Shown: one piece after another, positions 6,431 to 10,756 of the stretch
Position numbering within the stretch: the stretch's first letter is position 1
How the letters are laid out: every line of letters begins with the position of its first letter
NCBI GenBank assembly: GCA_017503375.1
Contig: JAFVTF010000025.1
Coordinates: 1-64,000 of the forward strand
Source of the DNA: Lentisphaeria bacterium
GTDB taxonomy: Bacteria; Verrucomicrobiota; Lentisphaeria; Victivallales; UBA1829
Reading direction: 5' to 3'
Length of the DNA stretch: 64,000 bases
Made by a program: the position numbers and the translations under genes
Notes under the pieces: generated by a model
The model's input: only the letters and a program-made list of their open reading frames with translations
Databases searched by the model: none
Told to the model about the DNA's origin: nothing

Positions 6431-7936
6431 ATGCAGAATAACGGTCAATACAAATGGCGCGGCGGATTTTGTCTGGAAGTCAATGCGCTGCCCAATACGA
6501 TTGTGATTTTCGGAGCTTCCGGCGATTTGACCGGGAGAAAACTGCTGCCTGCGCTTTACCATCTGGCAAAACGCGGATTGCTTCATGAGCGGTCTCGAAT
6601 CATCGGCTGTGCAAGAACTGTTATGTCCGATGAAGAATACCGGAACTATCTGTTGGAAAACTGGTTTTCTTCCGTTCCGGAACAGGAAAGAGAACCGTTG
6701 AATCAATTTCTGAAGCGTGTTTTCTATCATCATGGAAATTACAGTGACGGTGACTTTTACAGTGGTTTGGACCGGCGTTTGAAGACGTTGGAAGAAGGCT
6801 TGAATCCGGAAATCTCCGGCAGAATTTATTATCTGGCAGTTCCTCCGGTTTTGTGCGAAACTGTGGTCCGGGAGTTGTCTGTTGCCGGATTGCTTGAGGA
6901 AAATCAAAAAGGAACACCCTGGCGCAGAGTGATTCTGGAAAAGCCGTTCGGTTCCGATTATCAATCCGCTTTGGAATTGGATTATTCCCTTCATAAATAC
7001 CTTCAGGAACGGCAGATTTACCGTATCGACCACTATCTGGGAAAAGAAACGGTTCAGAATATCATGGTATTGCGTTTTGCAAATTTGATTTTTGAACCGG
7101 TCTGGAACGCACAATACATTGATTCCGTACAAATCACGGTTGCGGAATCTGTCGGAGTGGAACACAGGGCAGGGTACTTTGATAAAACCGGTTTATTGCG
7201 GGATATGTTTCAGAATCATCTTCTGGAAATGCTTTCACTGGTTGCCATGGAAATTCCCTCCGGTTCCGATGCGGAAGCAATCCGCGATGAAAAATTGAAA
7301 CTGCTGAAATGTATCCGTCCGGTTCAAATGGAAGATGTTATTCGCGGACAATATGAAAATTATTGTCAGGAAAAGGGCGTTGCGCCGGAATCCCGGACGG
7401 AAACTTATGCCGCGATGAAACTTTATATTGACAACTGGCGTTGGCGCGGTGTTCCGTTCTATTTGAGAAGCGGAAAGAAAATGCGGAAAAAGCAGAGTTC
7501 GATTTCAATTCATTTCAAGCAGATCCCCCATTCTGTTTTTCTTCCGGTAAGGGAAGAGGACCTGGCTCCGAATGTTTTGACAATGAACGTTCAGCCGGAA
7601 GAAGGATTATCACTGACGATTCAGGCGAAACAGCCCGGACCGAAATTGTGTATCGGTTCTCTGAACATGGATTTCAAGTATGCCTCAATTCTGGAACCGG
7701 GAGAAACGATTCCGGATTCCTATGAGCGTTTGCTCCTTGACTGTATGCTGGGTGATCAGACTTTGTTCATCCGCAGTGATACGATTCTGGAGGCATGGAA
7801 ATTGCTGACGCCGGTTCTGGAATATTGGCAGGCGCATCCGGAAACGCCGCTTTATTCTTATGCGGAAGGGACCCGCGGCCCGGATGCAGCTGACCGGCTT
7901 CCAAGAGAAAAAAAGACGATTTGGCTGGAACTTTGA
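6431..7936 (+). CDS. zwf: Glucose-6-phosphate 1-dehydrogenase
   Basis: A 501-residue enzyme that oxidises glucose 6-phosphate to 6-phosphogluconolactone with NADP in the oxidative pentose phosphate pathway. The N-terminal Rossmann motif is GASGDLTGRK (about 28-37) and the family signature with the substrate-binding Lys and catalytic His region is RIDHYLGKE (about 198-206). Length is normal. A GAAAGG ribosome site lies 10 bp before the ATG. No 6-phosphogluconolactonase or gnd gene is adjacent, unlike the usual arrangement; transketolase is present far away at 49090. The residues ahead of the Rossmann motif (1-22) are slightly longer than usual, so a start a few codons later cannot be excluded. 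Confidence 0.95.
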   Translation: MQNNGQYKWRGGFCLEVNALPNTIVIFGASGDLTGRKLLPALYHLAKRGLLHERSRIIGCARTVMSDEEYRNYLLENWFSSVPEQEREPLNQFLKRVFYHHGNYSDGDFYSGLDRRLKTLEEGLNPEISGRIYYLAVPPVLCETVVRELSVAGLLEENQKGTPWRRVILEKPFGSDYQSALELDYSLHKYLQERQIYRIDHYLGKETVQNIMVLRFANLIFEPVWNAQYIDSVQITVAESVGVEHRAGYFDKTGLLRDMFQNHLLEMLSLVAMEIPSGSDAEAIRDEKLKLLKCIRPVQMEDVIRGQYENYCQEKGVAPESRTETYAAMKLYIDNWRWRGVPFYLRSGKKMRKKQSSISIHFKQIPHSVFLPVREEDLAPNVLTMNVQPEEGLSLTIQAKQPGPKLCIGSLNMDFKYASILEPGETIPDSYERLLLDCMLGDQTLFIRSDTILEAWKLLTPVLEYWQAHPETPLYSYAEGTRGPDAADRLPREKKTIWLEL

Positions 7937-8009
7937 GCGGTGAAAACGGTCAAAAAAGTAAAAAATGCGTCAGAAATAAAAAAAAACAGAAAAATTTTAC
8001 AAAGTTGAC

Positions 8010-8038
8010 TTGACATATACGCAAATATGTGCTTTTAT
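8010..8038 (+). promoter_or_regulatory. Predicted promoter of the gcvH-like gene
   Basis: TTGACA (8010-8015), 17-bp spacer, TTTTAT (8033-8038). The -35 box is perfect; the -10 box is weak. The GTG at 8029 lies within this promoter, which argues against the longer reading frame starting there. Confidence 0.5.
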
Positions 8039-8133
8039 TGTCAGTAGCAAAACACAGTGAGTGTTTCTCTGTCCGGGTACGTGGGAGAGAGTTTGGAAAA
8101 AAGGTTTTTTTAACGGTGATGGAGGAGTGTGTA

Positions 8134-8511
8134 ATGAAATATTACTCAAAGGAACATGAATGGGTTCAGATTGATGGTGATGATGCCTATGTGGGTGTTT
8201 CCAGATATATTGTTGACCTGCTTGGCGATATCTCTTATGTGGAATTACCTAAAGAAGGTACAGATGTGATCGTTGGCGATGATATCGGAGTCATTGAATC
8301 AATCACGGAATCCGAAGATGTTTATTCTCCTATCAGTGGAACAATTATTGCTGTCAACCATAATATGGATGATGATCCCACCATTCTGAATGAACATTGC
8401 GAAGATAAAAAAGGCTGGCTTTGCAAGCTGGAAAATATTGATTTGGCAGAATTGGATGATCTGATGGATGAAGATGCATACGAACGGTATGTCTCCAAAC
8501 TGCAATCCTGA
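8134..8511 (+). CDS. GcvH-like protein lacking the lipoyl lysine
   Basis: A 125-residue protein with the full lipoyl-domain fold of glycine cleavage H protein: the N-terminal YSKEHEWV, then LLGDISYVELP and the core IESITESEDVYSPISG. In H proteins the core reads ESVKA, with the lipoylated lysine fourth; here that residue is Thr58 (codon ACG, 8305-8307). I chose the ATG at 8134 because it has a GGAGG site 7 bp upstream and matches the family start; a GTG at 8029 would add 35 unrelated residues. No gcvT, gcvP or lipoylation gene is near. The protein cannot carry lipoate at the usual place, so a role in glycine cleavage is doubtful. The fold is certain; the function is not. Confidence 0.85.
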   Translation: MKYYSKEHEWVQIDGDDAYVGVSRYIVDLLGDISYVELPKEGTDVIVGDDIGVIESITESEDVYSPISGTIIAVNHNMDDDPTILNEHCEDKKGWLCKLENIDLAELDDLMDEDAYERYVSKLQS

Positions 8512-8523
8512 TTTCTTTTGAAG

Positions 8524-9354
8524 ATGTTATTCAAGGGGCGCAAGTTCTCTTTTACACCTGAAAATCCGGCGATCATGGGAATTCTGAATGTGACGCCGGA
8601 TTCTTTCAGTGATGGCAGGGTGGATTTCCATTCAAAAATGGAAGCCCTGCTTTCCGAACCGCCGGATATTGTGGACATCGGCGGAGAATCCACCCGTCCC
8701 GGAGCTGTTTGTATTCCTCCGGAAATAGAGTTGGAACGGGTTCTTCCGGCTGTTCGGGAAATCCGCTCCGCTTTTCCTGATATTCTGATCAGCATTGACA
8801 CCCGGAAATCTGCAGTTGCACGCGCTGCGCTTGAGGCTGGCGCTGATATTGTCAACGACGTAAGCTGTCTTCATTTTGATCCCGCATTGGCTGATACCGC
8901 AGCTGAATATTCTGCAGGATTGATTCTTAATCACTCACGCGGGACTCCGGAAACAATGAATTTACCGGAAAATCTCTCTTATCCTGCCGGTTTGCAGGAA
9001 ATGGTCCGGGATGAGCTGAAGGAAGCTGCAGAATTTGCAATCAGCAGAGGGGTCCGGAAAGAATCCATTATCCTTGACCCCGGTTTCGGATTCGGAAAAA
9101 ATACACAGCAGAATATTGCGTTACTGAAAAATCCCGCATTGCTGCTTTCATTGGGATATCCCCTGTTATCAGGACCTTCACGGAAACGTTTTATCGGAGA
9201 GCTGACCGGAGAAGAAGAACCTCTGGAACGGGATTACGGAACCTGCGGGGCTGTGATTGCATCGGTTCTTTCCGGATATTCCATTCTCCGTGTCCATAAT
9301 GTTAAAGCCGCAAAAGATTCGCTGACGGTTTTCCGTGCGTGTTACTGCCGATGA
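8524..9354 (+). CDS. folP: Dihydropteroate synthase
   Basis: Condenses 6-hydroxymethyl-dihydropterin pyrophosphate with p-aminobenzoate in folate synthesis. The pterin-binding signatures are clear: MGILNVTPDSFSDG (about 18-31), DIGGESTRPGA (about 51-61), ISIDTRKSAVA, NDVS, DPGFGFGK and the C-terminal LRVHNV. Length (276 residues) is normal. A TTG at 8518 and an ATG at 8524 are both in frame; neither has a good ribosome site and I prefer the ATG. It starts 12 bp after the gcvH-like gene, so the two are probably co-transcribed; a folate link to one-carbon metabolism would fit a true GcvH, but that protein lacks its lysine. Confidence 0.95.
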   Translation: MLFKGRKFSFTPENPAIMGILNVTPDSFSDGRVDFHSKMEALLSEPPDIVDIGGESTRPGAVCIPPEIELERVLPAVREIRSAFPDILISIDTRKSAVARAALEAGADIVNDVSCLHFDPALADTAAEYSAGLILNHSRGTPETMNLPENLSYPAGLQEMVRDELKEAAEFAISRGVRKESIILDPGFGFGKNTQQNIALLKNPALLLSLGYPLLSGPSRKRFIGELTGEEEPLERDYGTCGAVIASVLSGYSILRVHNVKAAKDSLTVFRACYCR

Positions 9355-9426
9355 TTGATCTGAGAAACTCCCCCGATTCCCGTTTCCGAAAGAATAATTT
9401 CCTTTTTACTTTCCCTGTACGGAATC

Positions 9427-9454
9427 TTGTAATTTTATTTTCCTGTGTTATATT
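9427..9454 (+). promoter_or_regulatory. Predicted promoter upstream of pheA and repeat B1
   Basis: TTGTAA (9427-9432), 16-bp spacer, TATATT (9449-9454). The family B repeat lies between this promoter and pheA, so the repeat would be transcribed in the leader. Confidence 0.5.
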
Positions 9455-9475
9455 ACCTGATTGTCAATAACAAAA

Positions 9476-9677
9476 GCTCTGTTCCCAATAATGGTTGATA
9501 AATCTTTCTGTTATTTTAACCCCGAAAATGGCATTTTGATTTTTGTATCGCAAAAATCAGAATGCCGCAAAAAGGTTTGAAAAAGGATGATGGGGTTCGG
9601 GGAAGAAGGGAAAAACTTTCCTGAAAAGTTTTTCCCTTCTTCCCCGATCACAAATCAACCTTTATTGGGAACAAAGC
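9476..9677. repeat. Family B repeat, copy B1 (complete)
   Basis: Terminal inverted repeats begin GCTCTGTTCCCAATAA on the left and end TTATTGGGAACAAAGC on the right. Inside are hairpin 1 (9530-9566, stem GGCATTTTGATTTTTG) and hairpin 2 (9597-9647), a perfect 23-bp stem with a 5-nt loop CCTGA. The flanks CAAAA and CATAA may be a decayed target duplication. Related copies are at 14065 and 41940. Confidence 0.85.
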
Positions 9678-9694
9678 CATAATAAAAAAGGATA

Positions 9695-10756
9695 ATGACG
9701 ATGGATTTGAAAGAGATGCGGGACAGGATTGATGCCATTGACAGGCAGATCGTTTCTTTATTGAACAGCCGGTATGAAGTTGTCCGGGAAGTGGGAAAAT
9801 GGAAGTTGGAACGCGGTTTGCCGATTTATGTTCCGGAACGTGAAAAAGCTCTTCTGGAAAAATTGGATTCTTTGAATCAGGGACCAATGCTCCGTTCAAC
9901 ACTTCATGCGATTTACCGTGAGATCATGTCCGGAGCCTATCCTCTGGAACGGCAGCTCCGGGTTGCTTATTTCGGTCCGGTTGCGACTTATACCCATCAG
10001 GCGGCAAAACAGCAGTTCGGTGCGAGTGTGGAATATTTTTCCCGTCCGGGAATTGCAGATGTGTTCCGCGATGTTGAGGCGGAAATTGTGGATTACGGCG
10101 TTGTTCCCGTTGAAAATTCCACGGAAGGCGTTGTCAATCATACGCTGGACCTTTTGTTGGAATCATCCGTAAAAGTCTGCGCTGAAATCAACCTGCCGAT
10201 CCATCATGCTCTACTTTCAAAATCAGACCTTTCCGGAATCAGAAAAGTTTACAGTCATCCGCAATCGCTTGCCCAGTGCAGAAATTGGCTGGCAGAACAT
10301 TTGCCCGGAGTGGAACTGGTTGAAGCAAGCAGCAACAGCCGTGCGGCCCAGATGGCTGCAGAAGAAGCCGGAGCTGCTGCAATTTGCAGCGAATTGGCGG
10401 CAACCGTTTATGATTTGAATATCATTGCGGCAAAAATTGAAGATAATCCCCGGAATACAACCCGGTTTTTTGTGATTGGAAAGCAGGAAAATGCACCGTC
10501 CGGAAACGATAAAACTTCCATTTGTTTTGTAGTCAAGGACAGGGTAGGGGCTCTCTATGATTGTCTGCTTCCGTTCAGAGAAGCCGGACTTTCTCTTGCA
10601 ATGATTGAAAGCCGTCCTTCCAAAAAAGAAAATTGGAAATATGTTTTCTATGTGGATCTTATCGGTCACGCCGCAGATCCCCTTGTAAAAACAGCTTTGG
10701 AAAAACTTCAGAATTCAACAAGTCACTTGAAAATACTCGGATCTTATCCACTTTAA
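9695..10756 (+). CDS. pheA: Bifunctional chorismate mutase / prephenate dehydratase
   Basis: The P-protein of phenylalanine synthesis: converts chorismate to prephenate and then to phenylpyruvate. The N-terminal AroQ-type mutase domain (about 1-85) shows MRDRIDAIDRQIVSLLNSR and the later GPMLRSTLHAIYREIMSG. The dehydratase domain (about 88-265) begins VAYFGPVATYTHQAA and contains PVENSTEGVVNHTLDLL and the catalytic-region motif NTTRFFVIG. An ACT domain follows (about 270-350) with the allosteric-site motif ESRPSKKENWKYVFYVD, so feedback inhibition by Phe is expected. An ATG two codons downstream (9701) is an alternative start. The next gene, an ABC ATPase, follows after 21 bp. Confidence 0.95.
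   Translation: MTMDLKEMRDRIDAIDRQIVSLLNSRYEVVREVGKWKLERGLPIYVPEREKALLEKLDSLNQGPMLRSTLHAIYREIMSGAYPLERQLRVAYFGPVATYTHQAAKQQFGASVEYFSRPGIADVFRDVEAEIVDYGVVPVENSTEGVVNHTLDLLLESSVKVCAEINLPIHHALLSKSDLSGIRKVYSHPQSLAQCRNWLAEHLPGVELVEASSNSRAAQMAAEEAGAAAICSELAATVYDLNIIAAKIEDNPRNTTRFFVIGKQENAPSGNDKTSICFVVKDRVGALYDCLLPFREAGLSLAMIESRPSKKENWKYVFYVDLIGHAADPLVKTALEKLQNSTSHLKILGSYPL

Follow-up and report, generated by a model that had tools for sequence, protein, structure and literature searches.

The H protein of the glycine cleavage system (GcvH; families PF01597 and TIGR00527) has a lipoyl lysine, and this lysine is normally regarded as the whole point of the protein. In PMC6067878, GcvH of Bacillus is described as carrying an octanoyl group that is handed on in a lipoyl relay, and the lipoate-binding proteins (LbpA) of sulfur oxidation as possessing a strictly conserved lysine together with N- and C-terminal cysteines. 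GCSH is reported to be essential in the embryo beyond glycine cleavage (PMC7868403). Here, we analyzed a gcvH-like gene on a stretch of 64,000 nucleotides from a Lentisphaeria bacterium (assembly GCA_017503375.1, contig JAFVTF010000025.1), referred to as the window. Its product has a threonine at the place of the lipoyl lysine. With moderate confidence, we favour an explanation in which a second role, independent of lipoate, keeps the H protein under selection, and the lysine drifts after glycine cleavage has been lost.

Results

The open reading frame (ORF) in question encodes a complete H protein containing ...VIESITESEDVYSPISG... and matches Pfam GCV_H with an E-value of 1.2e-32 (112.8 bits). 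The protein also passes the equivalog cut-off of TIGR00527 gcvH (125.5 vs 115.85 bits). An AlphaFold2 model calculated from a 19-row alignment shows a mean predicted local distance difference test (pLDDT) value of 95.1, and the template modelling (TM) score between this model and bovine H protein (3klr) is 0.95. In an ungapped core alignment to the Thermotoga H protein (PDB 2ka7, 1zko), Thr58 lies opposite the K of IESVKAAADVY, and ESITESED occupies the place of ESVKAAAD. The only cysteines of the protein are at positions 89 and 97. An earlier note on this DNA, made from the sequence alone, had pointed out the exchange of the lipoyl lysine for Thr58, which is borne out by the translation, the family matches and the Thermotoga alignment. 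The note was right that the hairpin is altered further, but the count of two changed residues after the lysine was too low: ESVKAAS has become ESITESE, with V, K, A, A and S each replaced and three of these changes following the lysine.

The sequence ESITESED is identical in both other species of the genus examined (G001 and G002, separate metagenome-assembled genomes (MAGs)). No lysine was thus encountered in the two congeners available. In a tree of H proteins, the window's genus, represented by three rows, makes up a single clade with full support, which lies inside a mostly lysine-bearing group. The nearest relatives of the window locus are Lentisphaerae, Lentisphaeria or Victivallales MAGs, several of them from animal guts.

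The source genome is a draft assembly of 3.61 Mb in 128 contigs with a completeness of 93.6%, in which a single GCV_H match and hence no second gcvH was found. Neither gcvP (GDC-P search) nor gcvT (GCV_T search) was found in this 93.6% complete assembly, and both are also missing in the two congeners. The suggestion that gcvT and gcvP are not near the gene therefore extends to the entire assembly. Because gcvP and gcvT were not found, the window protein would not be working in glycine cleavage. The earlier statement that no lipoate ligase is nearby holds for the locus but not for the genome, which carries lipA (contig C75, 360 bits), one LipB/LplA-type gene (contig C65, 78.8 bits) and one 2-oxoacid dehydrogenase E2 (contig C2). 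As these three genes are present, lipoate metabolism probably exists in this bacterium with the E2 as client, whereas the window H protein, having no lysine at the site, is not equipped for this part. Sequence and predicted fold place the protein in the GcvH family, but it fails both functional features tested, the lysine and the partners.

Across the order, 120 gut Lentisphaerota MAGs, including the window genome, were searched for GCV_H, gcvP, lipA, LplA/LipB, gcvT and E2. The hairpins of the H proteins were read and the presence/absence matrix was compiled by hand from the search tables. Five divergent H-like rows (G052_L118, G054_L117, G006_L061, G042_L116 and G049_L115) were excluded from both the tree and the final counts, while G082_L092, whose hairpin alignment is uncertain, was excluded from the tree only. 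gcvP is present in 60 of the 120 genomes, and all 58 genomes having both gcvP and H contain an H protein with lysine. Among the 60 gcvP-less genomes, 51 have an H protein, of which 34 are without the lysine in any main H copy. Fisher's test for this distribution (58/0 vs 17/34) yields p = 7e-16, a value that ignores kinship. The residues replacing lysine in gcvP-less genomes are R and D (8 each), T and N (4 each), G (3), Q and E (2 each) as well as V, S, H and C (1 each); these substitutes share no chemistry. In genus g6, 12 genomes encode H twice: a gcvT-H-P operon contains the canonical copy, and the other copy stands alone, with Ser at the lysine position in 11 of the 12 cases.

The H tree, built from 125 columns for 122 rows and with many forks unresolved, shows 15 changes of the lysine state on the best tree, and at least 9 changes are forced by well-supported branches. 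After removal of the hairpin columns, 16 changes were counted on a quick tree. Searches for gcvP, gcvT, lipA, LplA/LipB and E2 all came up empty in 11 genomes that keep H, and in five of the 11 the lysine is missing as well; in six further genomes with H, neither lipA nor LplA/LipB was found. These 17 genomes, which include lysine-less cases, are mostly incomplete drafts, and LipS1/LipS2 were not searched. For comparison outside the order, 28 of 230 genomes were chosen in a non-random manner (17 listed class members outside the order and 11 low scorers). In the same class, the main H keeps its lysine in all six sampled gcvP-less genomes (G173, G237, G246, G269, G281 and G285). Elsewhere in the phylum the lysine is missing in two of the three sampled gcvP-less genomes (A in G238 and D in G257; G196 has K).

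Within the window's genus, the H protein is 93-95% identical to its two orthologues, compared to 77-78% for the zwf product and 71-75% for the folP product. The ratios of nonsynonymous to synonymous substitution (dN/dS) for H are 0.030, 0.019 and 0.037 in the three pairs, rough values because dS ranges from 1.0 to 2.6 and is thus near saturation. In the same genomes, zwf (0.086-0.122) and folP (0.105-0.158, two usable pairs) both lie above H. The median for these H genes in a separate earlier calculation was 0.042, two of the three pairs being usable. In genus g6, the stand-alone H shows a dN/dS of 0.048 (66 pairs; one of the 12 rows has K) and the canonical H a value of 0.15. Lysine-less H genes of genera g30 and g8 yield 0.066 (12 of 28 pairs usable) and 0.083 (one pair), and a canonical set in genus g3 yields 0.05 (six pairs). 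Because dN/dS is low in the lysine-less sets, we regard these genes as real and selected, and not as pseudogenes.

For a comparison of the individual columns, one row per genus and hairpin type was taken, leading to 31 of 59 canonical and 38 of 62 stand-alone rows; the stand-alone set includes lysine-bearing rows, with 28% K at column 58. Of the 125 columns, only 57, 58, 59 and 61 are near-invariant in canonical H yet free in stand-alone H. Partial relaxation is seen at columns 32, 34, 36, 56 and 62. Residues H8, G21, G31, P39, G48, P66, G69, P82, E90, W95 and Y116 are invariant in both sets, whereas Y3, E41, D44, I46, D49, D109, E113 and L123 are more conserved in stand-alone than in canonical H. 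Likewise, K93 is conserved to 86% in stand-alone H versus 48% in canonical H. Since full release is confined to the four hairpin columns, the alignments indicate that the lipoyl hairpin is released and the remainder of the protein held.

The features of the locus are listed in Table 1. The order zwf-gcvH-folP is common to the three species of the genus (gene names from sequence), and the position of folP behind gcvH, proposed previously, was confirmed at the locus. The two genes lie on the same strand and are spaced by 6 bp or 12 bp, depending on whether the TTG or the ATG start of folP is used. The folP product is a partner candidate only, restricted to the window's genus, and the sole local hint of this kind.

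Table 1 Coordinates of the gcvH-like gene and associated features in the window.
Feature	Position	Strand	Basis
gcvH-like gene, H protein of 125 amino acids without lipoyl lysine	8134..8511	+	ORF translation, family searches, structure model
Codon ACG for Thr58, lipoyl-lysine position	8305..8307	+	sequence, core alignment
Released lipoyl hairpin, codons 55-63, ESITESEDV; columns 57-59 and 61 free in stand-alone H	8296..8322	+	column comparison
zwf-like gene upstream of gcvH, gap of 197 bp; dN/dS control	6431..7936	+	named from sequence
folP-like gene, start TTG 8518 or ATG 8524; putative operon with gcvH	8518..9354	+	named from sequence and earlier note, no family search
Promoter-like block TTGACA-17 nt-TTTTAT, imperfect inverted repeat in spacer	8010..8040	+	read by eye, conservation

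Approximately 95-125 bp upstream of gcvH, the sequence TTGACATATACGCAAATATGTGCTTTTATTG is kept in the three species amid diverged sequence. This block resembles a promoter whose spacer holds an imperfect inverted repeat, and at up to three mismatches the genome contains no copy of it other than its own. A consensus promoter scan returned two matches, fewer than in shuffled sequences, none of them upstream of gcvH, and did not list the block at 8010-8040. A glycine riboswitch or other RNA upstream of the gene was considered and dismissed, as no family reached its gathering score in 7600-9700; the weak matches in this interval were miRNA-type, to a hairpin near 9577-9668, and chance. A stretch at 9476-9677, located between folP and a pheA-like gene, resembles a miniature inverted-repeat transposable element, with 24-nt terminal inverted repeats (92%) enclosing a 16-nt hairpin and a perfect 23-nt hairpin.

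The neighbours of H differ by genus and include folP (g1), a LOG-family protein (g5-g9), HPr (g30) and an unknown core protein (g3, g4, g8), where the absence of a neighbour means little in GC-rich loci, since the stop-to-stop gene caller is weak there and produces spurious antisense ORFs. The core protein of ~170 amino acids (e.g., L067:8421-8939) has no Pfam match and is encoded directly downstream of H in g3, g4 and g8. It was rejected as a specific partner because it occurs in 115 of the 120 genomes and is located away from H, on contig C71, in the window genome (G000).

A GCV_T ORF is kept in 20 gcvP-less genomes (L153:4082-5155, L204-L220, L094:2131-3138 and L124:4848-5846). In T protein, the catalytic Asp belongs to the DD pair of the DDxIV motif. 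Only one of the 20 (G052) has this pair intact, and the first D is aligned in four more. The dN/dS of the gcvP-less GcvT-like genes amounts to 0.07-0.40 in two sets (13 pairs) and 0.12-0.20 in a third (5 of 6 pairs usable), compared to 0.14-0.22 for canonical GcvT (4 of 6 pairs usable). In some genera T may thus persist as a non-catalytic protein under weaker constraint than H; the window genome is without GCV_T.

Two further groups of H-like proteins were observed. A second, distinct lysine-less GCV_H-like family (L186, L188-L196) occurs in class Lentisphaeria outside the order, in most members with the core CIHLH-L..RIHHLRSPL, while in two rows a K falls within the aligned hairpin. In 10 of 10 class loci of this family, the same strand carries, 0.02-1.3 kb downstream, a gene that is pyrF-like by sequence, and the genomes concerned carry another H with lysine. 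L115-L117 (genera g24, g17 and g28, within the order) resemble this family. In G006, a divergent lysine-bearing H (L061; contig C121:1660-2647) is located directly before an LplA-type gene with one internal TAG, an arrangement that resembles a GcvH-L/LplA pair.

Discussion

Partners that are not found, an intact predicted fold, sequence constraint, repeated loss of the lysine and full release confined to the hairpin columns are the observations to be accounted for. In the explanation we favour, the product of the window gene would be a folded H protein with no part in glycine cleavage and no possibility of lipoylation at the usual site. Its second role would most likely be that of a small binding partner, a scaffold or regulator, using barrel faces other than the lipoyl hairpin. 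We infer both protein binding as the selected property and the following order of events. The glycine cleavage system would be lost or, in one genus, the canonical H would be carried by a separate gcvT-H-P operon; H would then remain under purifying selection for the second role; and the unselected lipoyl hairpin would drift until the lysine is lost, many times independently. The simplest account is that the second binding role predates or accompanies the loss of glycine cleavage. More tentatively, and in our view possible rather than probable, an old lipoate-independent function of H would already have existed when this order lost glycine cleavage, and in ordinary genomes the need for the lysine would mask it. 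The previously proposed recruitment for a non-lipoyl function remains the best fit to the purifying selection, the promoter-like block and the repeated lysine loss without gcvP. However, Thr itself is not a selected feature, because among gcvP-less relatives this position is occupied by T, R, D, N, G, Q, E, S, V, H or C. The protein is therefore better described by a retained second role and a released lipoyl hairpin than by a Thr-specific new function.

Several observations weigh against a retained second role. Of the 51 genomes that have H but no gcvP, 17 retain the lysine. In 9 of all 60 gcvP-less genomes no H was found, and two of these 9 are 95-97% complete, so the role is not universal. 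A paired tree test of lysine loss against gcvP loss comprised six supported pairs, at most two of them informative, and with p = 0.5-1 had no power. No genomic neighbour is common to H across genera, and the near-saturated dS also has to be counted here.

The released part of the protein bears directly on whether H could serve lipoylation without being a carrier, e.g., by docking to or activating LipA or the LipB/LplA-type enzyme modifying the E2. The genes for such a process are present in the window genome, and solved H protein complexes exist with lipoyl synthase and with LplA. We nonetheless consider this unlikely: it is the very hairpin bearing the lysine position that is released, and H occurs in the 17 genomes without lipA and LplA/LipB, some of them lysine-less, within the limits of that search given above. 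A folate-linked role, with folate enzymes as partners of lysine-less H (in the window genome the folP product, in others GcvT-like proteins), appears similarly doubtful. The constant order of zwf, gcvH and folP in three species, the presence in part of genus g44 of a gene upstream of H that is folE-like by sequence, and the GCV_T ORFs kept without gcvP are in line with it, but folP adjoins H only in the window's genus among the loci examined, gcvT was not found in the window genome, and most other lysine-less H genes have non-folate neighbours.

Loss of the lysine, the failure to find gcvP and gcvT, and that to find H itself in some gcvP-less genomes would also be expected for a decaying relic of a lost glycine cleavage system. 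This is improbable given a dN/dS in the genus below that of both neighbours, the intact reading frame and predicted fold, the conserved promoter-like block and a similar constraint on lysine-less copies of other genera. Transfer of the lipoyl or another group to a different residue is more improbable still. The stronger conservation of K93 in stand-alone H would agree with such a transfer; however, K93 lies just before the GW motif, outside the hairpin, the residues at position 58 are chemically unrelated, and the 17 genomes without lipA and LplA/LipB keep H. Finally, a genome in 128 contigs might suggest an assembly or sequencing error at codon 58. The chance of this is negligible: five hairpin residues differ, and ESITESED, with its Thr, recurs in two other species represented by separate MAGs. 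The earlier note had already taken the two changed residues after the lysine position to argue against a single sequencing error. On sequence grounds, Thr58 is genuine.

Repeated loss of the lysine under stringent purifying selection points to a lipoate-independent function of H, which would be retained here, and names the residues to examine. If H does have the old function considered above, these bacteria would expose it through repeated loss of glycine cleavage with H retained, and would represent natural separation-of-function mutants for the non-carrier role of H, a protein conserved from bacteria to humans. The result is also a warning for annotation: the gcvH equivalog cut-off is passed without the lysine, and glycine cleavage is therefore not to be inferred from the gene. 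Searches of an open-access library, in which most subscription papers are not included, brought up no account of H proteins without the lysine from this group.

Compared to the known systems, the window protein matches GcvH (PF01597, TIGR00527) over the whole fold and length and scores above the equivalog cut-off, but differs in having no lipoyl lysine at the ESVKA position and no gcvP or gcvT found in the genome. The TIGR03077 not_gcvH proteins, a chlamydial family, are divergent H-like proteins as well, yet the window protein reaches 52.1 bits and remains below their cut-off of 144.05. GcvH-L of Streptococcus (PDB 5a35), another divergent H-like protein, is 25% identical to it. With LbpA it shares the existence of a GcvH-like protein outside glycine cleavage, but it has neither the lysine nor the N-terminal cysteine; hdr-like genes, a feature of LbpA clusters, were not seen in the ORFs adjoining gcvH, no genome search for hdr having been made. 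The likeness to the lipoyl relay of Bacillus lies in an H protein kept beyond glycine cleavage, although the relay needs the lysine that is missing here. With GCSH in the embryo, the window protein would have in common a role of H beyond glycine cleavage.
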